This document shows positions 21,215 to 59,000 of a stretch of DNA of 64,000 nt, piece by piece (positions within the stretch are counted from its first letter, which is position 1; every line of letters starts with the position of its first letter). A program made the translations under genes and the position numbers. Origin of the DNA: Hondaea fermentalgiana (lineage: Eukaryota; Sar; Bigyra; Thraustochytrida; Thraustochytriidae); the NCBI GenBank assembly GCA_014084085.1, contig NPFB01000053.1, positions 281,876 through 345,875 on the forward strand, in the 5' to 3' direction. Below the pieces are notes generated by a model that was not told where the DNA came from, made no database searches, and saw only the letters and a program-made list of their open reading frames with translations.

Positions 21215-21412
21215 CCTGCTCGCCTCCTTCTCCTTCTCCTTCTCCTTCGCCTCGACCTCCTCGCCTTCGCCAGGCTCTGGCTCTGCGCGAGCTTTTCGCT
21301 GGGCCTCGATCTGGCTGGGCCTTCTTCGCCCGCTCCGTGTGCACCACCTCCAAACCGCCGCGCGGGCTGCTGCAGGGCGCGGTCGCGCGCGGTCGCGCCG
21401 GGCGCGGCGGGG

Positions 21413-21512
21413 NNNNNNNNNNNNNNNNNNNNNNNNNNNNNNNNNNNNNNNNNNNNNNNNNNNNNNNNNNNNNNNNNNNNNNNNNNNNNNNNNNNNNNNN
21501 NNNNNNNNNNNN
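21413..21512. other. Assembly gap (100 N)
   Basis: Exactly 100 N bases, the usual placeholder for a scaffold gap of unknown size. It sits in very GC-rich sequence (GCGCGG runs on both sides), a common cause of sequencing drop-out. Reading frames cannot be carried across it. Confidence 0.97.
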
Positions 21513-21677
21513 GTGCGCGCGGCGGGGCGGGCTGCGGACGCCTGCCGCCGACGCGAGCTCGAGCTCGAGTCGGGTCGGGCCGGGTCGACTCGCGTCGTCT
21601 CGTGCAAGATCGACGGCGAAGACTGTTTGCCCGCCGCCTCTCTCCTTCTTTTCGCCTCCTCCTTCTTCTTCGCTTTT

Positions 21678-29366: not shown

Positions 29367-32162
29367 TTAGCAACAATGGCACATGGAGGCCGGCGGCGAG
29401 TCTGGTGAAATGGGTTCATCGAGAACAAGTCGCGCAGGCGTAACCCGAGCCGTATTTTGTGAGCCCTTGCGCTGCGATCCTTGGGAGCCTTGCGCCCGGG
29501 ACGGACGACGTTCTTTCCCGCTGGCACCTTCCACCTGGCTTGCTTGTCGCTCCATGCTGCCTTTACGCGAGGAAAGCCGCTCAGTGCTCTTTTTACCACT
29601 GCCTTTGGAAGCTGCCGATGAAGGTCTTTCGGCTGCACCTGACGAGGAAGCATCTCGTTTAACAATTGCCTCTCGGCTTCGAGTTGACCCGGTGCCTGAA
29701 GGTACCTTATTGAGACGGCGTTTCGAGCTGTAATTCAGGTTGAGTTGGCTCACACAGTACTTTGACATTGCTTGAATGTGTTTTTCGGTGTGCCCTTGTT
29801 CTCGGAACTCGGATGTCGCATCAGCCCCTGCATGCCAATGAATGCTTGCGGCTCCACCAGGGTGCTCATCTGCAAATGCTGTCAAATCATACACCTTGCC
29901 TTCCACAATAACGTAGCAGTCGCTCGTCTTGTCATGCTCTTGCACCATTTCCGGCGTGAACAGTTTTCTTCGCTGCATGGAAGCTAGAGACAGCGTCGAG
30001 CCATCCAGAATAAAGGTTGTAGATTGAGTCGCAAAGCTTCCTTGGTGCGACACAGTGGTTGCATCGGCAATAGAGGATGCAGAGGGACGCAGCACGAGAG
30101 ATGCCTTTGCTTCAAGATCCCCAGGATCCAGGACAGGAATCGGCAGAAGCCGATTCTTGAAGCTGCCGCTTGGCGATTGTGGAATTTGCGAAGCATCCAT
30201 CGATGACGAAAGAGATCGAATTCGAACAGAGGATCTCTCGCTTGGCATGCCAAGAGTCGTTGCACTTGCACTCTGCGCGAGCGCTTTCTCCTTGCGGGCA
30301 CTTCCTAGCTCAACGAGGCTTCGACTGGTTGCAAGTGTTGACATCTTCATGACGCCTGCATCCTCAGAATCAGCGTCGAGACCGTGCTCTTCCGAGATGT
30401 TCTCCGAGATCGTAGGTTGAGACGTGAGCCCCGTGTTGCGTCGACTTTCGTAAGCTTGTTCCGCTCCCGTAACAGATGACGAATCTTCTTGATGCTCTCG
30501 AAACGATGTGACAATCGGCAAGTGCCGACGTGAGGAAAAGCTCATATTCAAGTGGCCAATGCAATACTCTTGAAGTCTTTCGATATGCTTGTTGCCGTGG
30601 CCCTGCTCGCGAAATACGCCTGTAGCGTCACATCCCGCTTGCCACTGGATAATGGATTCCCCGCCGGGATGAATTGCCGCAAAATGAGTGAGATCGTACA
30701 CGCGCCCCTGAATTGCCACCCATGCGTCTTTAGGGCGATCATGTGCCGCAACGTCTGTCATTGACAAAAGACGCTTTTTGCCTGATGGGGAGCGAGTCAT
30801 GTTGACCTGCACACTCTTTAATGACCCTGATTGGCGAAGGTGGACCTTGTCTTCACCTATTGCTCCTGTTGATGCTCGCCTTGGCGTCTGCCCCACAATC
30901 CCTGCAGTATTCAATTCATCAGACTTTCGTCGTGTTTGGCGCTGAGGCGAAGCTTCAGTCTGGCAGACGCGTCCCACGCAGTACTTCTCAAGGACTTGGA
31001 GCTGATGCTGTCCATGGCCTTGCTCCCGGAACGCAGCAGTGCCGTCCATTCCAGCCTGCCAAGCAATGTTTGCAGCACCTCCAGGGTGGATACTGGCAAA
31101 CTCTGTCACATCATACACGCGTCCCTCTACAATTACCCAAGCATCGTCTGGGCGGTCATGCTCGCTGACTTCTTGAGGCGTCCAAGAGTTCATGATTGGC
31201 GAAAGACACTCGCGGTCCTCAGGGGTAACGTCTTGGTTGGGTTGCTGAGCTTGCCCAAGGAGAGAGCCTGAAGTTTGTGGAGATGGGGTAAGATTTTCTC
31301 CGTGGTCCTCGTCAGGGCTCTGCGGTCCATTATCACTGCTTCCACCACTTGAAGCGGCGCGCACTGATTCTAGGAACTTCTTTGTCTCTTCCATCTTGGA
31401 ATCTGATTCGCTGGACAGCAAGCTCGATCGCCGGCGCGTCGTGTTGAGATTAAGATATCCAATGAAATACCTTTCCAGCGCCTGGATGTGGTCGTAACCA
31501 TGACCCTGCTCGCGAAAGACCTGCGTTGCGTCGGTTCCAGCATTCCAGGTGATGATCCCACTGCCGCCAGGGTGTTTGTCTGCGAATTCAGTCACGTCAT
31601 AGACCTTGCCTTCAAGAGCAATCCACGCGTCACGTGGTTTGTCGTGCGCTTCAATATCGCTTTGCGTCCACAATTTTTTGCTCGTCGAGGTGCCGCTTGT
31701 TGCAAATGATTCAACAGATCTTCGGCCGACAGATTCGCCTCCGCCACGAATGCTGAGGGAGTCCACGGAGCCGCGACGTCTCATTTCTCCGTGCTCCCGA
31801 GGAAGACTGCTTATAGATGGGCGTCTCGAAGTCGGAAGCGTTGGCACGGAGGTTACGACTCCAACGCAAAACTTTTGAAGAATGTGCAATTGCTTCTCGC
31901 CATGGCCTTGCTCCTCGAACGCTTTGGTTGCATCGCTTCCCGCGTGCCATGTGATATTTGCAGTACCGCCAGGATGAATTTCTGCAAACTCGGTCAGATT
32001 GTACACACGACCGTGCACAATGACGAGACATGCCTCTGGCGAGTCGTGCTCGGCAACTTCAGCTTCCGTCCACTTGCGCTCGACTTCCATGGTGTTTGCT
32101 AGCGTCTTTGTCCCCTCGACGCTGCTATCGCCCTCCTCCGTCTTGGTCTGAGCCGTCTCCAT
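29367..32162 (-). CDS. Protein with five cytochrome b5 domains and a Cys-rich C-terminus
   Basis: A 931-residue protein from an ATG in ideal context. Five cytochrome b5 domains are present, with HPGG motifs near residues 63, 196, 358, 498 and 766. In each, a second His lies exactly 24 residues after the HPGG His (in F-x-E-Q-G-H), the heme-ligand spacing of animal cytochrome b5, so all five should bind heme. A Trp in the loop (ITWHAG, IITWNAG, IAWQAG, IIQWQAG, IHWHAG) is shared by all five, which marks recent internal duplication. Linkers are long, Ser-rich and disordered. There is no reductase, desaturase, sulfite oxidase or nitrate reductase domain and no transmembrane helix. The protein ends MCHCC, which could be a lipidation site. 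Role unknown; an electron-buffer or membrane-adjacent electron carrier is conceivable. Confidence 0.93.
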   Translation of the reverse strand: METAQTKTEEGDSSVEGTKTLANTMEVERKWTEAEVAEHDSPEACLVIVHGRVYNLTEFAEIHPGGTANITWHAGSDATKAFEEQGHGEKQLHILQKFCVGVVTSVPTLPTSRRPSISSLPREHGEMRRRGSVDSLSIRGGGESVGRRSVESFATSGTSTSKKLWTQSDIEAHDKPRDAWIALEGKVYDVTEFADKHPGGSGIITWNAGTDATQVFREQGHGYDHIQALERYFIGYLNLNTTRRRSSLLSSESDSKMEETKKFLESVRAASSGGSSDNGPQSPDEDHGENLTPSPQTSGSLLGQAQQPNQDVTPEDRECLSPIMNSWTPQEVSEHDRPDDAWVIVEGRVYDVTEFASIHPGGAANIAWQAGMDGTAAFREQGHGQHQLQVLEKYCVGRVCQTEASPQRQTRRKSDELNTAGIVGQTPRRASTGAIGEDKVHLRQSGSLKSVQVNMTRSPSGKKRLLSMTDVAAHDRPKDAWVAIQGRVYDLTHFAAIHPGGESIIQWQAGCDATGVFREQGHGNKHIERLQEYCIGHLNMSFSSRRHLPIVTSFREHQEDSSSVTGAEQAYESRRNTGLTSQPTISENISEEHGLDADSEDAGVMKMSTLATSRSLVELGSARKEKALAQSASATTLGMPSERSSVRIRSLSSSMDASQIPQSPSGSFKNRLLPIPVLDPGDLEAKASLVLRPSASSIADATTVSHQGSFATQSTTFILDGSTLSLASMQRRKLFTPEMVQEHDKTSDCYVIVEGKVYDLTAFADEHPGGAASIHWHAGADATSEFREQGHTEKHIQAMSKYCVSQLNLNYSSKRRLNKVPSGTGSTRSREAIVKRDASSSGAAERPSSAASKGSGKKSTERLSSRKGSMERQASQVEGASGKERRPSRAQGSQGSQRKGSQNTARVTPARLVLDEPISPDSPPASMCHCC

Positions 32163-33097: not shown

Positions 33098-36000
33098 ATG
33101 GGCGGCTCGGCGCCCGAAGAGGGGCCCCGCGCTGGCCCCGTGGAGCCACGAGACTGCGGCCACGGAAGGCAACGCCGTCTTGGAACGTGCACGGCCTGTC
33201 GAGCCGCAGCAGCGGGTGTGGTCGCCGAGCGACAAGGCCAAAAACTTGGTCTCGCGACTCAACAAGCCTTGTCTGCGAGGTTGAGAGTGACGAGAGCAAC
33301 ACACGCTGCTCTCGATGACGAAGATGCACGCTATCGACGTGAAGAGATCGAGAGCAAGGGTTTCCGTCGTGATCTCGTTAAAGCCACCTCCGTCGCGGAG
33401 GCGGCGGTCCTTCTCGAGGGCCACAGACAATCCCAACACAATAGAAGAAGAGTCGGCACCGAGACTGAAGCGGACACTTCTCCGAGCACACAAAGCATCA
33501 ACGAAGCAGCATACAAGGAGACAGAGATTCTTGACGATACAAGCTTCCAAGATCTTTCAGAGTTTCGCACATGGCTCCATGAGTCTGGCATTGACACGCT
33601 ACATTGGGGTCTCGCCCGAACAAAATCTTCCGCAAGTTTATTTCGAGAAATCCAAAACAAAACGAGCGTGCTTGTCATTGAGGCCGCAGATGGCGATTCG
33701 TTCAGGATCTTTCGTCTACTGCGCGTCGTGCGAGTGAGGGTAAAGCAGGAGATCGAGCGCGGTCGTATTCGGTACCTTGTCGAGGCTTCTCAGGAACTCG
33801 GTGAAACAGGACAGCTTCGGTACAGAAACATGCTATTGTCTTCGATGATGCGCTACGGTGAAAATGCATTCAATGCAGCAAGACGTAGCGTCGAGAAGGA
33901 AATGCAAAACATTAATACCGTTCGCGGAAGATGCATTCCTCGCCGCGCCATCACCGCCAAGCGGGACAGCCCAAGAGTCTGCGTCGAGGATCTCGAGTCT
34001 CCATCCTACCCAGGACTGCTAACACGATACATCCTTGTAACCGTAGACGTAGCTCTGGATCGCAGACTTCCCGATGCCGACTTTTGCACCGTGGAGTATC
34101 TCCCAACGATGCACATTGCGACGAAACATTATTGGAAGTGGAGAACGCGGGCCGAGGTCGCTCAGATTGTCAACGGGAAAACGTCCCGGTCAGCACCGTC
34201 AACAGCTCATCGCCGGAATCTTTTGCTTGGCGATGCGACCGAGTCCACCTCGGCTCTGCTACCTGGAACCGAGAAGCCTTTCTTCTGGAGCCTGTACGAC
34301 GACGACTTTGAAAAAGCGTCTGACTCTGACGACCTCTTTATTCCATTCAGTCGGCTCCGGCGCCACATGCGTCAGTGGGGTCTCACAGAAGATGAAATTG
34401 CCGATCTTTTGCAGCAGATCAAGGATGTACTCCGCGACGAAAGTCTTCTCTCCAAATCGGACTTCAAGAAGAAGCTGGCAGACCCAATCACGGAGCTCAT
34501 TGTTGCTGATCAAGACAGTCTCTCGTCGCGAGGCCTTGGCAACGAACATTATCAGGTGCTCAAAAATCTCTTTCCCAATGCAAGTCGAATTTTTTCGAGA
34601 ATTCTGCATGGTGGATTCTCAGGATCCTTCGTCCTTCAGGCCCAGGCACGATACTGCGATGGGTTGCAGGGAGACCCCACGGTCGTGAAATTAGACCGAA
34701 GAGACCTCATGCGCGATGAAATCCAGCGCTTTCGAACCTTGGCGCCGTACATGGGAGACTGCGCCCCCGCGATTCTGCAAACCGACGTCGAGGGCTCCGA
34801 CTCTCTCCTTGGCGGGATCAAATTTGAGCTGGTTGGTGCTGTGTGGATGCTTCCAGATTTTCGATCAAACCTGCTCAATAGTGGTGCGGCGCAGCCTCTC
34901 AGCACATTCAAAAAGCTGTTCATGCATGAAAGCGCCGAGGAGGAGCGTGCGCGCGTCGAACATGCGCTTGGCAAGGCCCGGGTTTCGAGCTCGCACGTCC
35001 TCGCAAGCCATACTTCGGATAAGTTTCCCACGATGCAAACAGAGACCCAGGTTGCGCGCCCGCCCTCCTCGCCAGCTTCCATCTCATCGCCAATGACTGG
35101 CCCGATGTCTCCCACATCGGAGGACGAGGAACCGCGGTCAGCCCTGGACCCCGGATCTCCGAAGGAGGTGAGCAAAGGAACGAATCTTGTCTATGGCGAG
35201 GTCTATCAGGTCCTCAAAGAGGTTTTTGGCGAGATCATGCGCACCACCACGCTTTCTTCCAAAGAAACAGTCTCGTGTAGTCTCTTAGACGTCTACAGAA
35301 TAGACAAGTACATTGGCCGCTTGCTCGAACCACCTGCAGCCCCGGGCTTGACAGGTGCTGGCGCCGCGGGCCTCCCTGACTGGGCCCAGCTTGACCCGAC
35401 GGGGTCCGGTAGAGCGCTTCTGCAACGTCTACTTGACAAAATCGATCGACAGACTTACCCTTATGAGATGGGTCTCGTCCACGGAGATCTCAATGGAATG
35501 AACATTCTTATTGACTCTCACAACATTGTCTGGGTCATCGATTTTGCCTTTTCCGGACGTGGTCACGTCCTGACGGACATCGCAAAGCTGGAATCCTGCG
35601 TTCTCTTTGAGTACACCCAACCGCGCTCGAACGCTGAGTATGAAGCACTGCAAGAGGTTGCAGACATTCTCATTCAAGTCGGGGACCTCCGTGAGGTCGT
35701 CTTTAACAGTCGCTTTGACATGCAAACGGATGCCGCGCCAACTGAACAGCTCGCTAGAGTGGCCTTTGCCTGGAAGGCCATCAAGCGTCTGCGCATGTAC
35801 GCTGCAAATTATTGCGACACAGATCCAGGGCCAGCGCAAATGCTTGTGGCAATGTTACACAATGCCGCTCGGGCGCTCCGCTTCACAGACATCGAGGACA
35901 AGCGTCTTCCCTACTTTGTCGCGACGCGCTGCGCACAGCGGCTCTTGGATTTCATGGAGACGAACAGGGGCTCTATCAAAATTCCTGCTCGAGCGCACAG

Positions 36001-39000
36001 CGAAGCGGCCTCGAGGCATAAGCCCATGAACGCAAGTCTTTCCGCAGATCAGATAAAGTACGAGAAACATCGCTACTTTCACGACGTCCGGGTCCGGGAA
36101 TCTTACATTCTTGACCTTTTCACGCGAGAGCCAGTTAATATACTGGAACAAACAGTCGAGCTGCAAATGATCGAAGGGAGCTCTCGCGAAAAGGTCATGC
36201 GTGAAGTGGCTAACATGGACGAGATTCAGGCCCAGAGACGTCTTCGAAAACGTCTCGACGCATTACGCGGGGATATTCTGGGTTGCACTGCCGACGAAGG
36301 ACTGGGAGGTTCGTGGCCGGCTTCCGCTGTGAATGATGAAGACAATGGTCACGCGCGCTTCACAAGCGCGCTGCAAGTGCTTGGAAACCCTCGCGATGAA
36401 GGCCATCGAGTTCTCTTGGGCGGCGCTGCATCGGGCAAGTCCTGCCTTATGCGCAAGATCCTTGTTTCAATGGGTCATGATCTTGCCTCAGATGGCCACG
36501 ACGTCATTCCCATTCTTATTCTAATCATCGAACTTGGACGTCTCATGACAGAACGTAAGCTCACCTCCGAGGATGATCTTCTTGATGCCTACTTTGCAAG
36601 CACCTTTGGAGAGGGCAGCGCGCGTCTTGCATTCTTCCGGCAGATGCGCAAAGAAGACGCACTGTGCTATCTCTTTGACGGACTCGACGAAGCCGGCGAC
36701 CATAAGCCCGCCATTGAGCGCTACCTAGCTGGCCTCGTGGACCATGAGAAACGCATCATCATTTCCTCCCGCGAGACAGGCTTCAACGAGACGGCCTTTC
36801 GAAACTTCCAATTTCTTCAGGTCATGCCACTTACGGACCAAATGCAAAGTCAGATTGTTGAAATGCGCCTCGGGAGTGACCACCCACGTCTCCTCACTAT
36901 TCGCAACGAGCTGCGGAAACCTCAATACGCTGAAATTGCCCGCAACCCGCTCATGCTGTCTCTGCTCGTTTCTCTTCTGGCGAACAAGGCCAATTCTGCT
37001 TCGCAGTCTGCGAACGGCGAGCGCCCGCGAAGCAATCAAGGCATACTCACGCGCTCGTACCTGTACGAGCGCGCTGTGGCGCAACTTTTGCACCACGGAT
37101 CAATGGCAAAGTTTGGAATGCGCAGAGGCGCAGACGACAAGCACGTGCAGCGTTCGATCGAAGCGCTTGCATCCAAGATAAGCTATGGGTTTCTGAAATC
37201 TCTCGCGTTCACCGCGCAGTCCTTGCGCACGCGGGACTTTGGGCCAGACGTGCTTAATCGTGTCGCTGAAACCTATGTGGCGGACCCGATCTACTTTTCA
37301 CCTGAAGTCATGGCCAAGCCTCTCGCCTTGCAAGAGGAAGTTTTTCGCGTCATCGAAGTCTTGCAGGGCGCCGTGTACTCGGGTCTCTGCGGTCTGTTTG
37401 CGACGAGCAGAGTCTCAGTTCAACCGAACGCAGCCGCAGAGGGTTATGGATCGACGACCTCACAAACTAGCCCTCAGCAGGTATTGCGCTTCGTCCATCT
37501 TAGCTTCCAAGAGTATTTGGCAGGCTTGTTCATTGTTGACCATTTACAACGAGCTCTCCGGAGCACAAAGGATGGAGGCGAAAATCCTTTTGGCGAAACA
37601 ATCAAATCACTGCTCTGCATTTGCCCCGAGCAGGAGGAGTGGGGCCATTTGCACGACCCTTGGTGGCAGGTAACTCTTGCAAGCATGGCTGGTTCCATGC
37701 CGCCTCGTACGTTTCTTGCGTTTGCGGAATGCATTCTATCGTGGGACGATTCCTCGGGGAGCAACGTTCTGCTCTGTGCAGAGCTTCATGCTGAAGCAGC
37801 AGCGTCAGAATCTCTCGAAGGCGCTCGCGACGTGGGAGCGGAGGCACCGCGGTCGCAGGTGGAGGCTTTGATCAAGAGCAGATTCTCCGACTATATCAAC
37901 GAGGAAGAGCTGGTCGACGCACTTACGCATCCTTCCCGCAACCTTCAGCTCATGGCACTCGCGGAGGTTCACAAACTGTACGACTCTCGAAAGGCAGCGT
38001 ACTCGATCATGTTTGGCCCTGGCATCGATGAGACGACTGACCGCGCCCCGTTGCTCCTTTTGCCTTGGTACCGCCGCGCGTCTGCTGCCTATGCCTTGAG
38101 TCATCTAGCGTCCGCGAAGAACGACGAAGTTATCATCGACGTTCTTCTCGGGCTTTGGTCCGATGAAAGCGGCCAAGTTCGACGCGCGGCGGTTGAGGCC
38201 ATCGCAGCGCTCCAGGCCGAGTCGCATAAGCTCGTCATCGATGAACTCCACCGTCAACTGCACGATGAGGTCGAGTCTGAGAATGGTCATGAACTCGTTG
38301 CCGCTCTCCGGGTTCAACATCCGCGCATCATCGAGGATCTTCTCACGATTGCATCTCTCGACGAGAGCGGTGCGAGCTCGAGCATCAGCAATAATAGCCA
38401 CGAGGCACTTCTGTCACTTCCACTTACAGTGGAGCTTTTGTACACCTTGTGCCGTGCCGTTTCTCACGCTAAAGTCCTCTCTGTGCGGAGCTGCGCGGCG
38501 CGGATTCTCATCTCACGCTGTGCACCTGAAGCGGGCGACGAGGCTGCACCCTTGAATGAGACGCTCGAGACTGCCTTTATTTCCTGGCTTGAACATCCAG
38601 AGGTCACTTTTTGCATGAGCGCCGCCCAGATACTTGCGCAAAGTACCTTTAAGTCATTCCGCATCGCCCAAGCACTTTCGACGCTCCAAAAACGGGTTGC
38701 CAGTCTACCGGGAGATCACTCAGACTTATGGGATGCTGCTCTCGTCGCCCTTGTCGCGGTGGCGCAGCCTGCAGATGACCTCGTGCATGATGCCCTGCTC
38801 TTTGGACTGCACGCGAAGGCTTCCACGACACGTGGAGAATGCATACAGCTTTTGCAGCAGCTCCTTCCCCAAATATTGACCCAAAGCCAAGATTTCAACG
38901 AAAGTCAAGCAAAGAGAATTCTCGCGACTTCGGAACCAATCGAGGAGTTGTCCTCTGCACAAGCTTCACAGGAAGACAGGCAAGCCGAAACTTCTCGAGC

Positions 39001-42000
39001 ATCACGAAAGATAGCATCTGGAGGCCCTTCTCGAGTGAAGCAAATGGTTCGCTTGGCGAGATACGCGGAAACATTGCGCAATATGGCCCAAGAGGATCCG
39101 GACGCAAACGTCGCTCGACAGGCATACGAAGTCGGCCAAATCATTCCGCAATTTGGATCCGAAATTGCGCACTCTCTCTTTGCTGACGATAGAGCGCCTC
39201 CTAAAGTCCGTTCGGCAGCGCTCAAGTCGATCCTCCAGAGAGCCCCGAACCAAGCTGCGATCGCTCAAATGCTGCCGATATTATCGGAGTGGATTGCGAA
39301 TGGACCGCGTGGTCTTGTAGACGCTGCAATGCGAGCGATGGTGAGCCTGAAAGAGGGTGGGACACTCCACGCTGCTCTTGCAAAAGGTACTATGCTCTCG
39401 TGGCAGCAGGCATGCAAACTTGTGGAGACGCTTGAACAAAATGCGCATAGTGTCAAGCGACTACTTGACCAGCATCAGATGGACCTTGTTCTCGAGTCTT
39501 TGTCCAAGGCCTATACAGCGCAAAAACGGGAGCAGACCGCGGCGCAAGACATGGGCGATATTGCAGAATTTGCCTTTTGCGACGCCCTTAGCGGACTTGG
39601 AGACAGTGGCTTTGCTTTCTCTGCTTCTGAGTCTTGGCTCGACCGTTTTGCCGACAGTGACGTGAACCTGCAAGTCGCACTGGCAACAATGTTGAGTGAT
39701 GCGTGTGTCTGCTCCCTCGAGGAAACTATTATGGGCTATATAAGGAGTGCTGAGACCGACAAACGCGTTCGAGCTTCGCTCGCGCTTGCTTTGCATCGCC
39801 TGAATCGATGGAAGTCTGAATCTGTGCAATTGGCAATGGAAGCATGGCTCTTAGAAGAAGACGAGAGCATGCAGCTCGCCGCCGTTGATGTTTTATGCGA
39901 GATTGGCGACATTGGCTCTCGCCTCGTTCGCTTGTTGCCATCGCTCTTGCATGGGACGAGCTTCAGAATTGGACCTGCTGTGCAAAAAGCGAGATCCCAA
40001 CGTGCAGGTCTCCTCACGCGAAAAGACACGAAAGCACGCATGCGCATGGCCGTCCTTTCGCACCTGCGAATGCATAGTGACACGAATTCTCTTGTGGATA
40101 CAGTGCAAGGCAAGGTCGCTCTGCGTGAAAGCATAGCGCACGGTGTTCAGACGCTTATGTTGCACCCCAAATTTGAGCTTGCGGAAACTGATGTCTTGCG
40201 CTGGCTGGATGATGCTGAAAATGTCAAACTCGTGACCTGTGAGATGCTCGCCAGATCGACCTGCACGGAAGCTGCGCGCACAAAATCTGTGGCTGAAAAG
40301 CTCTTCGAAATTTTGTCAGCAATACCCGACGGTCTGAATAATGAGTCCAAAACGAGTGATACTGCGCAAGCTGATGTTTCTCGAGTCCTTTGTAATGCTG
40401 CAAAAGTCGCACTTGTCACGAGGTTTCGCAGATTCCTGCCTTGGACTGCAGCCTCGGAACGACGACTTGCGACTGGATCAGCACAAGTGCGTGAAGCATT
40501 GCTGAAAACGTTGGTTCTTCGGGACTGGGTGCAGGATCCTGCGCTCTTCAACGCAGTGTTTCCAACCTTGCGCTCGTCTTGTCTCAATGATGATGAACGT
40601 GAAGTTCGGATAAGTGCTATCGCGCTATGTACAGACTGGCTTCGCGCTGTCAAAGACACTCGCATGGAGCCTGCTTTGGCCGAAGCGCAAGCAGATAATG
40701 TTGCCCGAATGGAAGGTTGCATCGAAGATGTTCTCTTATCATTTGATCGTGAGCCTTCGGAGCTTTCGGCAGTTGTCGACCTCATGCGAGGGTCCACCAT
40801 GTCCAAAGCCATCTTCATGGCCATGATCACGCTGGTGCGTGAGTGCCCGGACCAGAATGTAAGCGCGCGCTGCAGACTTGCACTCTCGCAATTGAAAAGC
40901 CCGCCCCCTTTCCAGGCAAGTGACCTTCTTAAGTTGGACACCTCCGGCCACGAGTCAAAGCTACTGTGGCTCACGCTCTTGAGGAAACTTCGACGGAATC
41001 CGGCATTTACGGAGACAATTTCCGACGCAGAAGTGGTCATCTACGTTCGCAGTTTTGTCGCCCCAGAGACTGCGCGTGAATATTCGCCATCAACCGCGCT
41101 TCTAATTATAGAACTCTTGCGCTGCTTCACGGATCTTCGCATCACGCTTGAGTCGGTCGACATTCTCAACTATCTTGACGTGGCGGCAACGGCCTTCGCG
41201 GAGGCCAGCGATGAGCGGATCCTTCGTATTTTGTTGCAGTACTTGCTTGTCAGCGAGAATGTCCGACTGAATGCCGCGGTTGTTGGGCATATAATCGATC
41301 TTGCAGGCTCAGAGAGCACAGATGTCACGCTCGAAACAGATCGGTCGCGCAATATTATTCACTTCTTTGCGCAGTATCAGATCAAAGATACGGCGGAGAC
41401 CAGCTCTCTGCTGGCGGTCATGGAGGAGCACGAAGTTGCCGCATCTTTTCTCTTTGAGCCTGTTTTGAGTTTCTTGCGGCGCGAGCGAACTCACCGGCCA
41501 TCGGACGAAGTACACAAGTCCCAAGCTGCCCTTCGTGCGCAGATTGATCAGCTTGCAAGAACAAAGCGAACGCTTGAAGCGACGTATCTAAGCAAGGAGA
41601 TCAGATTCGGTTTTGAAATGCACGATACGCTCGGCGTCACATCGAAGCAACTCGCCCTTAAAGGCCGGGAAAAGATCAAGGAGCAGCGCGTGCAGAGGCA
41701 GGCGCTCAAAGACATGCGGGAAGCTGAGTGGGAGCAAGCACGCGCAGAATGGTTTCCGCCCACTCTGGTGGACCAACATCTTGAATTCATCAACGTGCCT
41801 GCTTCGCTCGAGTACCAGCAAAGTAGGCTTTCCACAGCATCAACGGGAGTTTTTCTCAATGCTATACCCGATGAGATGGCGACTGAGCGACAGATTTTTG
41901 CACAAAATGTGCTTCCGGAGATAAGGCGTCGTCTCCGGGCCATGGGCGTGCCCGTAGCGCTGCACCTGAGCAATCCAGAAGTGCTTGGGGTGTTCGTGGA

Positions 42001-44746
42001 GCCGATTTCTTCTTTGACCTCATCTTCAACGTCTAACTTTTCGTCAGCTTCAGGAGCGAATTCTGCTGCGGCCAATCTGGCCCGAATAGCACAACGAACG
42101 AATCTTGCTCGTGAGTGCGCACCTTTTATGGTCTGCTTTCTAGGGGCGCGTTATGGGCAGCCGCAGCATAAGGCGCAAATTGATGACAGCATTGAAATGC
42201 TGGAGAGGAGCGCCTGCTTCCTTGGGCGACCCAACATGCCAACGAGCGCACTTTGCTATTTTCGCGACGCAACCTTTTATCAAGATCTTGCAGCGCATCT
42301 AGAGATGGAATCCATTTTCCAGCAAGCCACGCCACGGAGAAGCACAAAGGGGGACGCCGGGGAGAAAGGAAATGCGAGCAGCAAGTACAATGGCATAGAA
42401 GTTTTCTTTAGCGACAGCGAGAAGCCGGCGCTCGCGAACCTCGAAAAAGTGTACGCTGGTGAAGACAGTACTGACATCCGTCTCAAGTCGCGCCAAGAAC
42501 GTGAGAAGCAGGCGATTCTCTCACATCCGTATGCAAAGTCGACCAACGTACGTCTTAGTGCGCCCGTCAAGTTGCAGAACAGTGGTCACGTCTCTCCAAA
42601 TTGTCTCCTGGACTTCTTCGCGCAAGTGACAGAAGATCTTCTGGCCCGCATCTTGGGTGAATTTCCCGTGAGGACATCTCATCGCGCCAAACACAGCGCG
42701 GGTGCAGTGTGCGGGTCAGAGGAGCTTGCCGAAGAACTCCCCTTCCGTCTCTCTGAAGAGCAACGCGCCCATGAGCATTTCCTATGGGAGCACTCGCAAC
42801 TTTTACGAAGCGATACGGAATTTGGTGGCTTCTTGCCGCGCACGCGTCAGCATATTTACCAGGATCTCCAGCACTTGCTTACAGAGGACGGGAGCTCTGA
42901 CAACAAGTTGCGAGCGGAGCGCCGGACTGTCAAGAATCCCAAGTTCTGGACTAAGGATGAGCATCTGGGTAACAGCGCAATCCTCCTTACGGCTGAACGC
43001 TATCAAGGGAAGACGACGGTGCTTGCAACATTTACCGACTGGTACAGAAGTACATGTGCGCCGTCGCTGCCTCCGATCATTTTCCACTCTTGCAGGGCTT
43101 CTGCAATGTCAGGTGACCTCACTTTAATCTTGTTGCGCTTGGGTGTTGAGCTGCTCAATGTGTTTCATCCTCGCCTGGACCTAGAGGATTGGTCCCCCCC
43201 TTGCGGCTGCGCACTGAACCTTGAATCTGTGCGGACCTGGTGGCATGGGCTTCTCTGTGAGGTCTCGAGCCTTGCGTTGTCAGATCATCGACGGCCTGTT
43301 CTCATCATTGACGGTCTCTTCGAGGTGATGGATTCTGCTTCTGTCAAGAGCAAGGAGATCTGGATGGGGCTGCTTCCGCAAAGGTATGGCGGCCGCTGTC
43401 CACCAGGGATCTCCATGATTCTGAGCGCATCGGCTTGCAGCAATGCGAAAGCTCTCGCGCGGACAAACAAGCGGCAGAACTTCCCCTATCGTGAACTACA
43501 GGTGGGATCGCTCAGCAAAGATGAACAGACTGTTCTTCTCACCGAGGCGCTTGCACGCTATCGCATGCGTCCCACAGAGAGCCTGTTGTTAAGAACCTCG
43601 CGAGCTGGCGCGAATTTTGCGCCTGCCAACCTCGACATTTTCGTGCGGCATGTGGCTGGCCTCCACGAAGGTTGCACGCAAGTCGAGACAAGCATTGAAC
43701 ATTTGCTTGGCCTCTTGGGGAATGACGAGCTCGAGAATGGTCGAGAGGGAGGCGGTGGAAACGCGCCGGACGGGGACGCGATTGTTGCAGATCGAGATCG
43801 AGCTCATACGATCCTCGACTCGATTTTGATTGGACTCGAAGTCGAATTTGGAGTATCGCTGTGCCGGTCAATACTGACATGTCTCGCTCTCACCGGACAC
43901 ATGGACGAGTCAGATCTCTTCGAATTCTCTTCGCAGTTCGCAGAGACCATCTCCCCGAAAGAATGGCGTCGCCTGTGCTTGCAGCTGGACGAAGTGGTCA
44001 TTTGTGTTTCGGTTTGTGCACAGAACGAAATTGCGCCCTGGCAGCGTCGCGGATCGTCTTTGCGGAGCGTGAACTCGCAGAGTTCTCGCTCTTCGCGCGG
44101 ACCTGAGGCGCGACGCATTAGCGACCTGGCTTCCCAGGACTTCTCGGCACGCAGAAAGTCCGCGGATGGAGGCGCGGGCAGGCGCTATGTGCGGCACGTC
44201 TCGGCACCAGAAGAACTCATGCGGACGCTGCACGCCGAAGCACACTCGGTACGTGTACTCAGTCTCCGATCTGAATGGTTCAAGCGAGGCGTCCTGCGTA
44301 GGTACTATAATACCTCAGAGACGGCAACGTGTCCTCAGCTTGCGGAGTTCTATGAAAGACTCTGTCGATTTTGGACAAGTAAACTTGACGTGTGGTATGC
44401 AACGTCAGCCCAGATCCCACTTCTCACGCATCGCGCTGCCGTGATGCGCAAGGTTGTTCATTATGCGCTTTGCGCGTCGGACCCGCTCTCTTGTATTCGG
44501 CGCACGCTGCTATCGCCCAAGACGCTCGCTGCAATGGCAGCCCAAATCACGTGGTATGACGCCATGTCCGCCATGGCGGAGGACTTTGCGCGTGCTCTTG
44601 ACTTTTTACAGCAGGGCCTCGATAGTAGATTTACGGAAGAGGATGCAAAGGAGTGCGCGGCCAAGCTTGCATTTGCGCGCGAACGTATCAGCGCGAACGT
44701 TGACGAAATCTCCGCAAACCCGGACTGCGTTACTGAATTACTATAA
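33098..44746 (+). CDS. Giant STAND/NACHT protein with Nudix-like, kinase-like, HEAT-like, DUF4062-like and second NTPase domains
   Basis: A 3,882-residue intronless protein; the ATG has A at -3 and G at +4. Residues about 150-350 resemble a Nudix-like region (YRNMLLSSMMRYGENAFNAA, later HYWKWR). About 500-830 is an aminoglycoside-phosphotransferase-like kinase: glycine loop HGGFSGSFV, catalytic HGDLNGMN (about 794) and metal-binding IDFA (about 812). A NACHT NTPase follows: Walker A GGAASGKS (about 1108), Walker B YLFDGLDEAGD (about 1191), sensor IISSRE, then the wing motif FVHLSFQEYLAGLF (about 1465). About 1590-2790 is HEAT-like helical repeat. About 2915-3100 resembles DUF4062 (ERQIFAQNVLPEIRRRL, FLGARYGQ, LCYFRD). 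A second STAND-type NTPase (about 3290-3700) has a degenerate P-loop AERYQGKT and Walker B VLIIDGL, as in TEP1/NPHP3/NWD proteins. The layout suggests a ligand-triggered oligomerising receptor. Function is inferred only. Confidence 0.9.
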   Translation: MGGSAPEEGPRAGPVEPRDCGHGRQRRLGTCTACRAAAAGVVAERQGQKLGLATQQALSARLRVTRATHAALDDEDARYRREEIESKGFRRDLVKATSVAEAAVLLEGHRQSQHNRRRVGTETEADTSPSTQSINEAAYKETEILDDTSFQDLSEFRTWLHESGIDTLHWGLARTKSSASLFREIQNKTSVLVIEAADGDSFRIFRLLRVVRVRVKQEIERGRIRYLVEASQELGETGQLRYRNMLLSSMMRYGENAFNAARRSVEKEMQNINTVRGRCIPRRAITAKRDSPRVCVEDLESPSYPGLLTRYILVTVDVALDRRLPDADFCTVEYLPTMHIATKHYWKWRTRAEVAQIVNGKTSRSAPSTAHRRNLLLGDATESTSALLPGTEKPFFWSLYDDDFEKASDSDDLFIPFSRLRRHMRQWGLTEDEIADLLQQIKDVLRDESLLSKSDFKKKLADPITELIVADQDSLSSRGLGNEHYQVLKNLFPNASRIFSRILHGGFSGSFVLQAQARYCDGLQGDPTVVKLDRRDLMRDEIQRFRTLAPYMGDCAPAILQTDVEGSDSLLGGIKFELVGAVWMLPDFRSNLLNSGAAQPLSTFKKLFMHESAEEERARVEHALGKARVSSSHVLASHTSDKFPTMQTETQVARPPSSPASISSPMTGPMSPTSEDEEPRSALDPGSPKEVSKGTNLVYGEVYQVLKEVFGEIMRTTTLSSKETVSCSLLDVYRIDKYIGRLLEPPAAPGLTGAGAAGLPDWAQLDPTGSGRALLQRLLDKIDRQTYPYEMGLVHGDLNGMNILIDSHNIVWVIDFAFSGRGHVLTDIAKLESCVLFEYTQPRSNAEYEALQEVADILIQVGDLREVVFNSRFDMQTDAAPTEQLARVAFAWKAIKRLRMYAANYCDTDPGPAQMLVAMLHNAARALRFTDIEDKRLPYFVATRCAQRLLDFMETNRGSIKIPARAHSEAASRHKPMNASLSADQIKYEKHRYFHDVRVRESYILDLFTREPVNILEQTVELQMIEGSSREKVMREVANMDEIQAQRRLRKRLDALRGDILGCTADEGLGGSWPASAVNDEDNGHARFTSALQVLGNPRDEGHRVLLGGAASGKSCLMRKILVSMGHDLASDGHDVIPILILIIELGRLMTERKLTSEDDLLDAYFASTFGEGSARLAFFRQMRKEDALCYLFDGLDEAGDHKPAIERYLAGLVDHEKRIIISSRETGFNETAFRNFQFLQVMPLTDQMQSQIVEMRLGSDHPRLLTIRNELRKPQYAEIARNPLMLSLLVSLLANKANSASQSANGERPRSNQGILTRSYLYERAVAQLLHHGSMAKFGMRRGADDKHVQRSIEALASKISYGFLKSLAFTAQSLRTRDFGPDVLNRVAETYVADPIYFSPEVMAKPLALQEEVFRVIEVLQGAVYSGLCGLFATSRVSVQPNAAAEGYGSTTSQTSPQQVLRFVHLSFQEYLAGLFIVDHLQRALRSTKDGGENPFGETIKSLLCICPEQEEWGHLHDPWWQVTLASMAGSMPPRTFLAFAECILSWDDSSGSNVLLCAELHAEAAASESLEGARDVGAEAPRSQVEALIKSRFSDYINEEELVDALTHPSRNLQLMALAEVHKLYDSRKAAYSIMFGPGIDETTDRAPLLLLPWYRRASAAYALSHLASAKNDEVIIDVLLGLWSDESGQVRRAAVEAIAALQAESHKLVIDELHRQLHDEVESENGHELVAALRVQHPRIIEDLLTIASLDESGASSSISNNSHEALLSLPLTVELLYTLCRAVSHAKVLSVRSCAARILISRCAPEAGDEAAPLNETLETAFISWLEHPEVTFCMSAAQILAQSTFKSFRIAQALSTLQKRVASLPGDHSDLWDAALVALVAVAQPADDLVHDALLFGLHAKASTTRGECIQLLQQLLPQILTQSQDFNESQAKRILATSEPIEELSSAQASQEDRQAETSRASRKIASGGPSRVKQMVRLARYAETLRNMAQEDPDANVARQAYEVGQIIPQFGSEIAHSLFADDRAPPKVRSAALKSILQRAPNQAAIAQMLPILSEWIANGPRGLVDAAMRAMVSLKEGGTLHAALAKGTMLSWQQACKLVETLEQNAHSVKRLLDQHQMDLVLESLSKAYTAQKREQTAAQDMGDIAEFAFCDALSGLGDSGFAFSASESWLDRFADSDVNLQVALATMLSDACVCSLEETIMGYIRSAETDKRVRASLALALHRLNRWKSESVQLAMEAWLLEEDESMQLAAVDVLCEIGDIGSRLVRLLPSLLHGTSFRIGPAVQKARSQRAGLLTRKDTKARMRMAVLSHLRMHSDTNSLVDTVQGKVALRESIAHGVQTLMLHPKFELAETDVLRWLDDAENVKLVTCEMLARSTCTEAARTKSVAEKLFEILSAIPDGLNNESKTSDTAQADVSRVLCNAAKVALVTRFRRFLPWTAASERRLATGSAQVREALLKTLVLRDWVQDPALFNAVFPTLRSSCLNDDEREVRISAIALCTDWLRAVKDTRMEPALAEAQADNVARMEGCIEDVLLSFDREPSELSAVVDLMRGSTMSKAIFMAMITLVRECPDQNVSARCRLALSQLKSPPPFQASDLLKLDTSGHESKLLWLTLLRKLRRNPAFTETISDAEVVIYVRSFVAPETAREYSPSTALLIIELLRCFTDLRITLESVDILNYLDVAATAFAEASDERILRILLQYLLVSENVRLNAAVVGHIIDLAGSESTDVTLETDRSRNIIHFFAQYQIKDTAETSSLLAVMEEHEVAASFLFEPVLSFLRRERTHRPSDEVHKSQAALRAQIDQLARTKRTLEATYLSKEIRFGFEMHDTLGVTSKQLALKGREKIKEQRVQRQALKDMREAEWEQARAEWFPPTLVDQHLEFINVPASLEYQQSRLSTASTGVFLNAIPDEMATERQIFAQNVLPEIRRRLRAMGVPVALHLSNPEVLGVFVEPISSLTSSSTSNFSSASGANSAAANLARIAQRTNLARECAPFMVCFLGARYGQPQHKAQIDDSIEMLERSACFLGRPNMPTSALCYFRDATFYQDLAAHLEMESIFQQATPRRSTKGDAGEKGNASSKYNGIEVFFSDSEKPALANLEKVYAGEDSTDIRLKSRQEREKQAILSHPYAKSTNVRLSAPVKLQNSGHVSPNCLLDFFAQVTEDLLARILGEFPVRTSHRAKHSAGAVCGSEELAEELPFRLSEEQRAHEHFLWEHSQLLRSDTEFGGFLPRTRQHIYQDLQHLLTEDGSSDNKLRAERRTVKNPKFWTKDEHLGNSAILLTAERYQGKTTVLATFTDWYRSTCAPSLPPIIFHSCRASAMSGDLTLILLRLGVELLNVFHPRLDLEDWSPPCGCALNLESVRTWWHGLLCEVSSLALSDHRRPVLIIDGLFEVMDSASVKSKEIWMGLLPQRYGGRCPPGISMILSASACSNAKALARTNKRQNFPYRELQVGSLSKDEQTVLLTEALARYRMRPTESLLLRTSRAGANFAPANLDIFVRHVAGLHEGCTQVETSIEHLLGLLGNDELENGREGGGGNAPDGDAIVADRDRAHTILDSILIGLEVEFGVSLCRSILTCLALTGHMDESDLFEFSSQFAETISPKEWRRLCLQLDEVVICVSVCAQNEIAPWQRRGSSLRSVNSQSSRSSRGPEARRISDLASQDFSARRKSADGGAGRRYVRHVSAPEELMRTLHAEAHSVRVLSLRSEWFKRGVLRRYYNTSETATCPQLAEFYERLCRFWTSKLDVWYATSAQIPLLTHRAAVMRKVVHYALCASDPLSCIRRTLLSPKTLAAMAAQITWYDAMSAMAEDFARALDFLQQGLDSRFTEEDAKECAAKLAFARERISANVDEISANPDCVTELL

Positions 44747-46330
44747 TAAATTGTCACTGCCCTGGTGCTGCGGCGCTCCCGGCGACGTTGGGCTCCGGTA
44801 TTGTAATATATTTTGCTTGGCAATAATTACAGAGCCCAGCGTGCGGACAGAGTTCACCTTGTACGCAGAGATGGCCGTGGCAATCTCCTTTTCGGATACT
44901 TCAATGGGGCCCTCAACCTCCGGAAGAAGAAATTCGACACGGCCATAATCTGTACTCCAGGGATGCGCCGAGATCTGCGCAAAGGATGCCCGCTTGGAGA
45001 GATCTTTTTCTAGAATGGACTTTAAGAGGCCAACGACATCGTGGTCACTTTCCCTGGTCGTAACACCGGCGGATCCGGGGCGTGGTGGGTAGTTTACATC
45101 TCCTTCCTGGATCAGGTCGATGAGCGCTTGCGCAGTATCAGCAACGAAGGGGGGGGTGCCGAAGATCATCATGAACAGGGTCGCGCCAACTGCCCAAATG
45201 TCAGTAAGCTTGCCATTGAAGGCCTCCCCAGAGCACATTTCGGGCGCAAGAAAGGCCATTGTGCCATCTGTCCGATTAATCATGGGATCTTCGTCATCGC
45301 GAAAAGCCTGCGCAGCGCCAAAGTCGGACAGCAAGAGGCGATCCGTTTTGTCGACAAGTAAATTGCTTGGCTTGATATCCTTGTGAATGATGTTGTGCTT
45401 GTGTAAATAGTCCACAGCAGAAACGAGCTGGACCATTAGTCGTCGGGCTCTGCACTCTTGAAGAGGAGATGCCTTGCTGTGATCCGGCATGAGCGCTCCG
45501 CCATCCACAAAGGACGTGACCATGTACGTCTTGGGGTGACTTGGGTCATCGATTACCTCTATGAGAGGCAAAATGTTGGGGTGACGCAAACGCTTCTGGA
45601 TGGCAATTTCTCGCTTCAAATCCGTCCTTGAAGCATTACTTGTGCGCGGACCGAACTGAGCACGTTTTAGCCTTTTCCGATCGATAATTTTGATGGCACA
45701 AAACATTCCCGTCTCATGCCGTGCTCGAACAACGACCCCAAAGCTACCTGTGCCAATCACTGCGCCAAGCTTGTAGCCATTGACTTTGATCACGTTTCCG
45801 TCCTCATCGGCGGTGACTTCATTCGAAGTTGTGATTTGCGTCTGCAGCGACGGTCCCATCTGAGGTGAGAAAGCGCCACGCTTGATCATGGATGACCGCC
45901 GACGTTCTGCGAGCGGATCAGCATCACTCGCAGCTCGATTCTCAAGAAAAGATTGCGTGGACGTTTCGGGAATCTCATTACTGCCGCTGCCATTGCTGCT
46001 GCTCGAGTGCGGTGCCGACGGAGTCGGCAAGTCTCCGCTGTCAGCGATTAAATCAAGTAATTCATGCGAAAGCTTTCGGTATTGTGCGATGAGTTTGCGC
46101 GCTTCGATTAGATTGTCAAATTCATCTGCCCCAGCTGACTTTTGTGTTTCTTCTCGCATGAACTCAAGAGCTCGGCGCACAAGGTCACTTTCTGCAGCCG
46201 TCGCCACCTTCACACGAAGCACAGAGCTCGTAGATGGTCTCGGAACCACGACAGATGAACGCGCGCTTGCATTAGTCTGTTCGCCAAAGCTGATCTCGTT
46301 GCCGAGCGGCAAGCTCGCAGATCCCCCCAT
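44741..46330 (-). CDS. CaMKK-like serine/threonine protein kinase
   Basis: A 529-residue protein. The kinase domain spans about 180-465: glycine loop IGTGSFGVVV, lysine in AIKIIDRK, catalytic IIHKDIKPSNLLV (His-Lys-Asp in place of His-Arg-Asp), LSDFGAAQAF, activation loop ending GTMAFLAPE. The segment IEVIDDP after the alpha-C helix and the insert after RKRLKRAQFGPR are typical of Ca2+/calmodulin-dependent kinase kinases and their relatives (SAK1, Tos3), which phosphorylate the T-loop of AMPK/SNF1-type kinases. The N-terminus MGGSAS fits an N-myristoylation signal (Gly2, Ser6). No clear calmodulin-binding helix can be read from sequence alone. Its last 6 bp overlap the end of the giant STAND gene. 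Confidence 0.9.
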   Translation of the reverse strand: MGGSASLPLGNEISFGEQTNASARSSVVVPRPSTSSVLRVKVATAAESDLVRRALEFMREETQKSAGADEFDNLIEARKLIAQYRKLSHELLDLIADSGDLPTPSAPHSSSSNGSGSNEIPETSTQSFLENRAASDADPLAERRRSSMIKRGAFSPQMGPSLQTQITTSNEVTADEDGNVIKVNGYKLGAVIGTGSFGVVVRARHETGMFCAIKIIDRKRLKRAQFGPRTSNASRTDLKREIAIQKRLRHPNILPLIEVIDDPSHPKTYMVTSFVDGGALMPDHSKASPLQECRARRLMVQLVSAVDYLHKHNIIHKDIKPSNLLVDKTDRLLLSDFGAAQAFRDDEDPMINRTDGTMAFLAPEMCSGEAFNGKLTDIWAVGATLFMMIFGTPPFVADTAQALIDLIQEGDVNYPPRPGSAGVTTRESDHDVVGLLKSILEKDLSKRASFAQISAHPWSTDYGRVEFLLPEVEGPIEVSEKEIATAISAYKVNSVRTLGSVIIAKQNILQYRSPTSPGAPQHQGSDNLL

Positions 46331-56081: not shown

Positions 56082-59000
56082 TCAGCTGAATGAGCGCGTG
56101 AACGAGGTCGACTCATCAGGCTTTGGACGAAGCTCACTTTCGCCGTGCGCGAAAAAGCATTGATCCCCCTTAAAACAGTCGGTACCATTCGAGGATTCCC
56201 AATTTCGGCACAATTTCGTCTTGTAGTGCGGATCTGCCTTGGGATCCCCCGTGTATCTTGGCTTCCTTGGGTGATGCGACTGGGTTGCCGCGTGGGGACC
56301 GCGCCAGTTATCGCGCGGGGCACGCGCTGACGAGGCGAAGCCCGAGCCCCGAGGCGGGGACGACGAGAGTGGCGACGGTGACGGGGACCGCGATCGTCCT
56401 CGTGCTGCCGATCCAGGTCCGCTTTGCGAATTTCGTCGAGGTCGAGTCCCTGGCGCCGAGCTCAGACTCCCACCACCCCCTCCGTTGCTCATGCCACCAT
56501 TGCTGTTGAAAAGGTGTGGAGGCGCGATGATGGGGTCATTGATGCCAGGGAATCGCGGTGGCGGCGACCATGGCTGTTGCTTGCGTGACTGCGGCGACCC
56601 TGTCACAGAAGATGATGATGCCATCGATGGAGAATCCCTCGATGAAGTCTCAAAGCCAGGTGGCGGCCCACGAGATCCAGAACGATGACGACTCGATACT
56701 GTCGCCGGATCAGAGGATGTCGAAGGAAAGTCTTCAAAACCCGGCGGCGGCTCGACAATTACCGGGGGAAGAATGTCCTCTTGCGTCACGGTGCTTGGCA
56801 GGTGACCATTTGAATCGTCCGGGTCCAACGAACCGTCATCTTTGATCGAAGAATACCTCGCAGGTCTCGAACTAGATGCAATAGACGCTGTCTGTTGTGC
56901 AGCTGCAGACTGCTTCTGTTTGTTTTTTCCATGTTTCGGTGGTTTTCCTGACGAAGAAGAACCGCCGGTTGCGCTCTGGCTGTTTCCTTGCTGCTCGCCT
57001 AACGAATCCATGACACACTGCGGTCGAAGACGGAAAGGACGTTCGCTCTCGGTTCCTTCAGCCACGCTTGTCAATGTGTCCATGCCATCCGACGGCGATA
57101 AGGTGCCAAATTTCTCAGAACCCGCGGGCGCCTCCTTGGCACGCTTGGCGCATGCAGCAGCATCAGGGCCGTACTTGGCAACGGTGAACGGGCCAAGAAT
57201 CTCGGCAAATTCGGGCTCGTGAGCGCAAAACTCGAGAATGAAACGGTGGCACGACATGAGGAGTTTGGGAAAGCGATTCGAGCCAATGAATTCGTCCAGA
57301 AATCGATCCGGAAGAGGGGACAACAAGTCTCGAACCTCTGGCGTCGACTCACGGATATGAGAATACTTGTTGCGCATGTAGCGCAACAAATCCCGCAGTG
57401 AATGGGTCGTGTAGTAGCGCCGTTTGCTGTCGACAACGTCGTTGCGCAGACTCGGATGCAGGCGCTGAAGCCAGCCCTGCGAGCCAAAAACTTCTCGTGC
57501 ATATTCCTCAAAGCGCTCATGGAGGGTGGACTCAGGTACGGAGAAGGGTCGTGGATCGCTACCGCTCGCCCGATCCTCTACGACGCGGTCAAGCTCGAGA
57601 CGATCGCTCACGTGTTTCAAAAACTCGAGCTTGCGCGACGCTGGCCACAGAAGCGGGTGCTCCATGCACTCCTCAATACTCGGGCGCAATTGCGCATCGT
57701 GGCGAATCATCTGACCGATCAAGTCCTGTGCCTCGGGATAGTTCTTGATTCGCCCCAGATTTACCGGTGCGTCATCCATGATGTTCTTTTCTCGTTCAAT
57801 GGCATCACCAAAAGGGTGGAATCCATTGCTCACCACGTAAAAGAAGACGCACCCCATGGAGAAAACGTCGACCTTGCGTCCGCAACGAATCGCCACGTCG
57901 CGCTCAAGCTCGGCGTCGCCTTTGCTCCGAAGAGACGAAAGAAGTTCGGGTGCACGCCAGCCCACTGTACCTGAGCCATGCATACTCGTGCCACCATAAA
58001 TGGAGCTCGTTGTACCTGAAAATTTGCGACCGAGACCCATGTCTGAGAGCTTGGGCTCAAAGAACTCTCCAAGACCAGCAAGGTACGAGCTTCCACCGAC
58101 ACTGCGCGACCCTTGTGACTCTGCCTCGACCAAGGTACCCGAGCTCGCAGAGACTGATGATACCGAGACGGTCATGGCGCCGGTGACGAGGCTCGTGGGG
58201 CTCGATGCCGGCCCAGAAGGCCCAGGGGCGCCGCTGCTGATCGCCGAAGGGTCCCAAGACCCCTCGGCCACTTCTGCCTTGGCTGCGTCCACCTTCTTGG
58301 TTTCAATGACGAGAATATTTTGCGGCTTAATGTCGCAATGAACGATGCATAGCGAATGAAGGTGTTTTGTTGCATCGGCAAGACTGTGCAAAAAGGCAAT
58401 CGTGGTGTCTGGCAAGCGGACATTTTTCTTTGCGCTCTTGGGCACAAGTTCCCGACGACTTCGATTCAGATCGCGGATACTCTCCACGGCCTTTTCCAGC
58501 GTAAAGTCGCATAATTCGAGTGCAAGGTAAATAAATTCCCGCGTCTCCTCTTGCGTAAAGTAGCGCACGACGTTCGAGTGGCCGTCTGAGCGAATGAGAA
58601 GGTCGATCTCCTTCTTTGCCAGCTGAAATTGGCTCGCCACCACCTTTTTCACTGCAACAGGACGATCACGAAGTCGCCCTTTGAGAACCGTGGTGCCATG
58701 GCAGCCGCGACCAAGAACTGAGTCGAGCTGCACGGTGAGCTGACCCACACGCTCTGTCTCGGTAGCGGGGTCATACTGGACCTCGAGCTCTTGGGCCGAC
58801 CCGCGTTTGTGACGCCGGATCAGATTCAGCCTGCTCGCCAAAAGAACAAGAACCAAAATTAAAAGAGCGCCAATGACGGTCTGCAGCGTCCGCTCTCGTC
58901 CCGCGTCCATAGGTGCAGGTGGATAACCTGGGGGATCAAAGTGCGTATGCCTTGGGGTCTCCGAAGGGGTTGCTCCGTGGTTCGTTGTGCCAGATCCAGG

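Follow-up and report, generated by a model that had tools for sequence, protein, structure and literature searches.

An apparently intronless gene of Hondaea fermentalgiana encodes, in one chain (P0001), an N-domain, a TCAD9 kinase, a NACHT NTPase, a HEAT-like repeat region, a DUF4062 domain, and a second STAND NTPase, in this order. On balance, we regard P0001 as a single-chain STAND (NLR-like) receptor, in which the kinase and a possible NADase are coupled to a HEAT sensor. The features are given below by their positions in the window, which is the whole 64,000-nucleotide stretch of DNA analyzed.

33098..44746, + strand: receptor gene, 3,882 codons, apparently with no introns needed; FCC1311_054052
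33524..34207, + strand: N-domain, residues 143-370; conserved, common to P0010 and P0005
34538..35977, + strand: TCAD9, APH-type kinase domain, residues 481-960; Pfam, invariant columns, and fold matches
36380..37597, + strand: NACHT NTPase and the helical/winged-helix part that follows, residues 1095-1500; Pfam and motifs
37958..41467, + strand: HEAT-like repeat region, residues 1621-2790; Pfam HEAT_2
41828..42337, + strand: DUF4062 (TIR-like) domain, residues 2911-3080; hhalign and a weak Pfam match in P0003
42203..42205, + strand: codon of E3036, aligned with the TEP1 catalytic Glu E1008; missing from the public model
42953..43687, + strand: second STAND-type NTPase, residues 3286-3530; Walker motifs partly degenerate
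43688..44743, + strand: C-terminal region of module 2; modeled, at low confidence, as mostly helical

Reading frame and full-length relatives

The open reading frame at 33098..44746 (+) runs from ATG to TAA (3,882 codons, 3,882 aa), and the frame is free of stops over 3,886 codons from stop to stop. The public record of the gene (FCC1311_054052), labeled hypothetical or ternary-complex-associated protein by NCBI and UniProt, has a model of 3,351 aa. This model leaves out residues ~31-117, 2224-2512, 2966-3107, and 3718-3747 (the borders are approximate), and no stop codon occurs in any of these four stretches. The second stretch aligns at 121/288 positions (42%) with P0003 and 78/254 (31%) with P0004, the third at 45/120 (38%) and 34/97 (35%), and the fourth at 13/29 (45%) and 6/21 (29%), respectively. 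For the first stretch, the corresponding values are 22/72 and 22/83, and its end (residues 91-117) aligns at 10/21 and 11/23 positions. From these alignments, we read the four stretches as probable exon, with the first as the least sure.

P0003 (3,992 aa) is 44% identical to P0001 with a coverage of 98%, and P0004 (3,765 aa) is 42% identical in the best alignment, with a coverage of 47%. TCAD9, NACHT, HEAT, and NPHP3_N were all detected by Pfam in both proteins. The P0004 record is filed under Durusdinium trenchii; it is possible that the sequence comes from a labyrinthulomycete contaminant in the culture. The departure of the public model from the frame at four places is the evidence for P0001 being two genes or a misassembled join, an explanation we hold to be extremely improbable. 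The frame is open from stop to stop, the codon-position composition is even along it, stretches 2, 3, and 4 align to both relatives, and these relatives lie with the same domain order on contigs of 28.7 and 20.8 kb. Because the whole chain recurs in two proteins of comparable length from different sources, P0001 is neither a chance product nor a misassembly. The first-pass annotation had described one intronless gene of 3,882 residues and had named a misassembled join as what would refute it; the open frame and the relatives support the description.

The first-pass annotation had also proposed a search for the full architecture and its copy number. Two other full-length proteins were found by protein searches that scored the best 1,916, 7,997, and 8,000 candidates, a scope that does not prove the absence of the architecture elsewhere. 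A protein search of the Hondaea genome detected no second copy of the C-terminal module, and one copy of the full architecture was found there.

The identities of P0001 to P0003 and P0004 are 75 and 55% in the N-domain, 56 and 48% in the kinase, 66 and 55% in NACHT, 40 and 29% in the HEAT region, 44 and 37% in DUF4062, 48 and 32% in the second NTPase, and 47 and 30% in the C-terminal part. Among the three proteins, the divergence of the HEAT region outpaces that of the kinase and NACHT, as that of a sensor might. DUF4062, the second NTPase, and the C terminus diverge at about the HEAT rate (ranges 37-48% and 30-44%), and fast divergence is thus not peculiar to the HEAT sensor.

Several other reading frames of the window lie on the opposite strand. 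A protein kinase ORF of 529 aa (44741-46330 (-)) is arranged tail to tail with the receptor gene, and the two stop codons are side by side at 44741-44746. The protein encoded at 29367-32162 (-) (931 aa) has five cytochrome-b5 stretches, along with weak matches that resemble zinc fingers. The ORF at 56082-60506 (-) (1,474 aa) has a kinase and a Ribonuclease 2-5A domain, which we take to be the layout of IRE1. Three PTP-like phytase stretches are found in an ORF of ~1,690 aa (16544-21607 (-)). The ORF at 9495-16235 (-) (2,246 aa) had no Pfam match at E <= 0.001, and a strong AT skew at 10001-14000 lies in it.

The kinase-NACHT-HEAT part and its family

The architecture given by the first-pass annotation (APH-like kinase, NACHT, HEAT repeats, DUF4062, and second NTPase) stood, with the Nudix-like label of its N-terminal region unconfirmed. 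N-domain fragments of P0001, P0010, and P0005 gave zero Pfam matches at E <= 10. The N-domain profile matched P0010 (E 4e-23) and P0005 (E 6e-5), and weakly P0006 (E 0.004; the best reversed control was 0.16), in the same place ahead of TCAD9; it did not match 7/10 other long TCAD9 proteins (P0008, P0009, P0011, P0012, C158, C91, and C229). The AlphaFold model of the N-domain is mostly of low confidence (pLDDT < 60), and the domain was barely probed by VIA-align, in which all rows for the model containing it were taken by the kinase.

In the whole P0001 sequence, Pfam matched TCAD9 (PF19974) with E 1e-29 and 104.5 bits against the curated cut-off of 40 bits, and APH with E 1e-6. The catalytic sites comprise the G-loop at 505, K531, E541, HGDLNGMN (795-802), and D815. 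The Lys, the Glu, HxD, the Asn, and the metal-binding Asp are invariant in 38/38 aligned sequences, which represent 31/60 bacterial loci and 7/13 long proteins. The predicted structure has an APH-type kinase fold with good confidence, supported by fold matches, and the earlier assignment of an APH-like kinase is thereby strengthened. The NACHT domain, which had been called complete, exceeds the Pfam cut-off in the whole protein (E 6e-8; 33.2 bits against 26.7). Its motifs, Walker A (GGAASGKS, 1108), Walker B (FDGLDE), SSRETG, NPLMLSLL, and FVHLSFQEY, are kept in 3/3 full-length proteins. HEAT_2 was below the Pfam cut-off in the whole P0001 (E 0.004), reached E 7e-7 and 30.0 bits against 27.7 in the isolated fragment of the region, and was above the cut-off in P0003 and P0004, in agreement with the HEAT-like repeats first proposed.

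A scan with two short motifs, which other TCAD9 types may escape, found 60 bacterial loci, mostly encoding ~770 aa, and 60/60 matched TCAD9. At E <= 0.001, Pfam isochorismatase matched 42/60, dual-specificity phosphatase models matched 39-41/60, and NACHT matched 0/60. In active enzymes of the isochorismatase type, a Cys and an Asp stand at the positions of the motifs GVWTEAKV and TQCLQxDF of the bacterial consensus. Both are replaced in the consensus, and the isochorismatase domain therefore seems to be inactive. The consensus retains the phosphatase motif HCxGGLGRxG. In most of the loci, TCAD9 is flanked by the seemingly inactive isochorismatase domain on one side and the phosphatase on the other. 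In these bacterial proteins (L015-L074), the kinase and phosphatase motifs are intact in the consensus, mostly in one chain with the isochorismatase domain.

The neighbors of 10/60 bacterial loci comprise 81 ORFs with 128 families, SpoIIE and HATPase_c_2 occurring in three ORFs each, and none of vWA, MoxR, or NACHT is among the 25 families listed of the 128. The name "ternary complex associated" is therefore no evidence for a conflict role here. Bacterial TCAD9 looks like part of a putative kinase-phosphatase switch, and a conflict role is unsupported in this 10-locus sample. The accessible text of PMC7159879 describes a few APH kinases of ternary systems as active and proposes small molecules as their substrates; the term "TCAD9" is absent from its main text as far as accessible. 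In the accessible part of PMC10910872, TCAD9 appears in a bacterial context.

Two protein searches and the Hondaea genome yielded 13 distinct long TCAD9 proteins, excluding two database copies of Hondaea genes. Six of the 13 have named eukaryote sources (four Hondaea, one Durusdinium record, and one Cymbomonas), and seven were taken as eukaryotic from their length and layout. NACHT matched 12/13 at E <= 0.01 and was above the Pfam cut-off in six (P0001, P0003, P0004, P0008, P0009, and P0012); the thirteenth, C229, matches AAA families. The C-terminal ends are HEAT in three, ankyrin in seven, and LRR in three proteins, and among the four Hondaea TCAD9 genes, one has HEAT and three have ankyrin. 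P0011 (2,378 aa) carries an RNA 2'-phosphotransferase (Tpt1/KptA) domain ahead of TCAD9-NACHT-LRR.

A kinase tree (70 rows of 245 columns, each kinase represented by two pieces; rooted for display only) placed all 13 long proteins on one side of a branch with a support of 96/93, found in 95% of 200 bootstrap trees, and grouped P0001, P0003, and P0004 (100/97). Five long proteins are on long branches, and P0011 and P0012 are possibly joined falsely. The tree topology fits a single acquisition of the kinase, which may have been followed by repeat exchange. A transfer from bacteria to eukaryotes would be the direction suggested by the wide spread of TCAD9 in bacteria. In the open-licence literature searched here, represented mostly by titles and abstracts, we recognized no publication on NACHT receptors of thraustochytrids, stramenopiles, or Cymbomonas, and none on eukaryotic TCAD9. 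This agrees with the initial statement that no protein with the domain order of P0001 had been described. The TCAD9-NACHT family with swappable HEAT, ankyrin, or LRR ends was not found described and is new in this analysis.

The C-terminal DUF4062-NTPase module

In P0001 alone, the evidence for the two C-terminal domains proposed by the first-pass annotation is weak; profiles of the relatives and hhalign uphold both. Pfam listed no DUF4062 in P0001, as the whole protein or as a fragment, or in P0004, and the only match was in P0003 (E 0.013, 16.1 bits against a cut-off of 24.7). The second NTPase gave a weak NACHT match in the P0001 fragment (E 0.002), and genome profile searches detected neither domain at the P0001 locus. 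NPHP3_N matched P0003 (E 3e-5) and P0004 (E 2e-7). In hhalign, the C-terminal module of P0001 aligned with two DUF4062-NTPase proteins over 565 columns (probability 99.3, E 3e-20), and the unrelated control gave 0.1. The profile match of the module to P0013 extends to about residue 3620. P0013 aligns to the TEP1 domain structure (PDB 11gz) with E 1e-46; neither P0001 nor the C-terminal profile had direct sequence matches to PDB chains.

The accessible part of a 2026 preprint (PMC13174449) reports TIR-like NADase activity for DUF4062, both in bacterial defence against phages and in human TEP1, where E1008 is catalytic and R908 and R976 help. Of the four human DUF4062 proteins tested there, TEP1 was active, and NWD1, NWD2, and NPHP3 were inactive. 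We mapped E1008 to E3036 of P0001 through P0013, in a gap-free stretch. The 11gz numbering was counted by hand, with R908 as chain residue 15 and R954, R976, and E1008 as 61, 83, and 115, all of the expected types. A Glu occupies the E3036 position in 3/3 full-length proteins. R976 aligns with R3018, which is kept in P0003, and the alignments of P0004 disagree at this position; the equivalent of R908 in P0001 is an Asp. E3036 is absent from the public model because residues 2966-3107 are missing there. The conserved Glu alone is no proof of NADase activity, since three human DUF4062 proteins are inactive in the accessible part of the preprint.

Walker A of the second NTPase is AERYQGKT in P0001, SDRHQGKT in P0003, and GPTGSGRT in P0004. 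The Lys is kept in P0001 and P0003 and is Arg in P0004 (GxxxxGRT), and the first residue is Ala in P0001 and Ser in P0003, not Gly. Walker B is DGLFE or DHLLD. From these motifs, the second NTPase may be degenerate. Its best fold match was plant NRC1 NB-ARC by Foldseek and Avs3 by VIA-align; because the mean pLDDT of the C-terminal model is 48, these low-confidence matches serve as support only.

In the Hondaea genome, 8 NACHT, 15 NPHP3_N, and 5 DUF4062 matches, partly overlapping, were found at E <= 0.001, a STAND repertoire that is sizeable for a single-celled organism. The NACHT matches include the paralogue C158 and the P0001 gene (24.5 bits there, below the cut-off). Five other DUF4062 loci were considered as the source of module 2. 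In a small search, the C-terminal profile matched L078 (E 3e-4), L076 (0.014), L079 (0.34), and L077 (1.0), and L075 was not listed; in the same search, the best reversed control was 0.82, C158 was 0.16, C91 was 0.3, and P0013 was 2.8e-18. These scores do not establish the five loci as the source of module 2.

Proposed mechanism and biological role

Judged by its domains, P0001 is organized like a STAND receptor, in the manner of the danger sensors of immunity in animals, plants, and bacteria, and membership in an immune system would follow only by analogy. Here, we propose that two STAND modules are joined by a HEAT-repeat solenoid. By sequence, module 1 consists of the N-domain, the APH-type TCAD9 kinase with its catalytic residues intact, and the complete NACHT, and module 2 of the TIR-like DUF4062 with the catalytic Glu, followed by a STAND NTPase with partly degenerate motifs, the same arrangement as in TEP1, NPHP3, and NWD1. 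Until a ligand binds, the HEAT region may keep NACHT in the ADP-bound, inactive form. The exchange of nucleotide would then lead to oligomerization, by which the kinase domains and the TIR-like domains would be brought together. The kinase may have a protein or a small-molecule substrate, and NAD+ may be cleaved by the TIR-like domain; a signal or cell death would result. P0001 is probably a ligand-gated STAND switch. A function in defence or regulated cell death has about an even chance, an active NADase falls clearly short of that, and analogy makes a role in immunity or self/non-self recognition plausible. Rather improbable as a whole is a single-chain "double receptor" whose one sensor serves an APH-type kinase and a TIR-like NADase on two STAND rings, as a branch of a kinase-NACHT-repeat family of NLR-like proteins not described before, in which the kinase was acquired once, probably from bacteria; the kinase may then act on NAD+/ADP-ribose products from the other end.

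Animal and fungal NLRs share with P0001 an N-terminal enzymatic effector, NACHT, and C-terminal repeats; for fungal STAND proteins, the accessible part of PMC4986451 lists PKinase, HEAT, and ankyrin. Unlike in NLRs, the effector of P0001 is an APH-type TCAD9 kinase, not PF00069, and a DUF4062-STAND module lies C-terminal to the repeats. TEP1, NPHP3, and NWD1 likewise have DUF4062 before a STAND NTPase, with the catalytic Glu aligned, whereas the module of P0001 is C-terminal, behind kinase-NACHT-HEAT; compared with TEP1, the R908 equivalent is lost and the Walker motifs are partly degenerate. Bacterial Swarozyc, a DUF4062 TIR-like NADase in the accessible preprint text (PMC13174449), is comparable to module 2. 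The bacterial TCAD9 proteins have a homologous kinase with the catalytic residues of P0001, but they are mostly short and lack a NACHT match. The other long TCAD9 proteins, such as Cymbomonas tetramitiformis CYMTET_40594 and three Hondaea paralogues, have TCAD9, NACHT (AAA in one), and repeats; unlike P0001, these ten end in ankyrin or LRR, and Pfam DUF4062 is listed in 0/10.

Module 2 could instead be a pseudo-enzyme, in which DUF4062 and the second NTPase only bind and the kinase-NACHT half signals. The loss of the R908 equivalent, the deviating Walker A and B, and the inactivity of 3/4 human DUF4062 proteins in the accessible part of PMC13174449 argue for this, whereas the conservation of the catalytic Glu in 3/3 and of the Walker A Lys in P0001 and P0003 argues against it. 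We give it a serious chance, a little below even; it is compatible with the favored receptor reading save for the NADase activity, and the probabilities of the two overlap. The single copy of module 2 and the architecture conserved in two other proteins would also fit a non-immune role. P0001 would then be a STAND housekeeping protein, conserved as a scaffold or regulator (ciliary, vault-like, in assembly, or in nutrient sensing) with no defence function, comparable to NPHP3 or to bacterial STAND regulators. Fast-turnover immune families differ from P0001 in this respect, the N-domain, kinase, and NACHT are 48-75% identical, and NPHP3 has the DUF4062-NTPase layout without NADase activity in the accessible text of PMC13174449. 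However, the motifs of the kinase and of NACHT are conserved, as is the DUF4062 Glu, and the repeat type changes across the family, even among the Hondaea genes; we consider the housekeeping role unlikely.

The TIR-like module connects the single-chain receptor that we favor, in a way that can be tested, to the DUF4062 NADases reported recently, and the public annotation of the gene omits the residue that would carry the NADase activity. Little is known about the intracellular receptors of unicellular eukaryotes. A kinase-NACHT-repeat family in a thraustochytrid, a green alga, and others would carry NLR-like logic into new lineages and would make an APH-type kinase a STAND effector.
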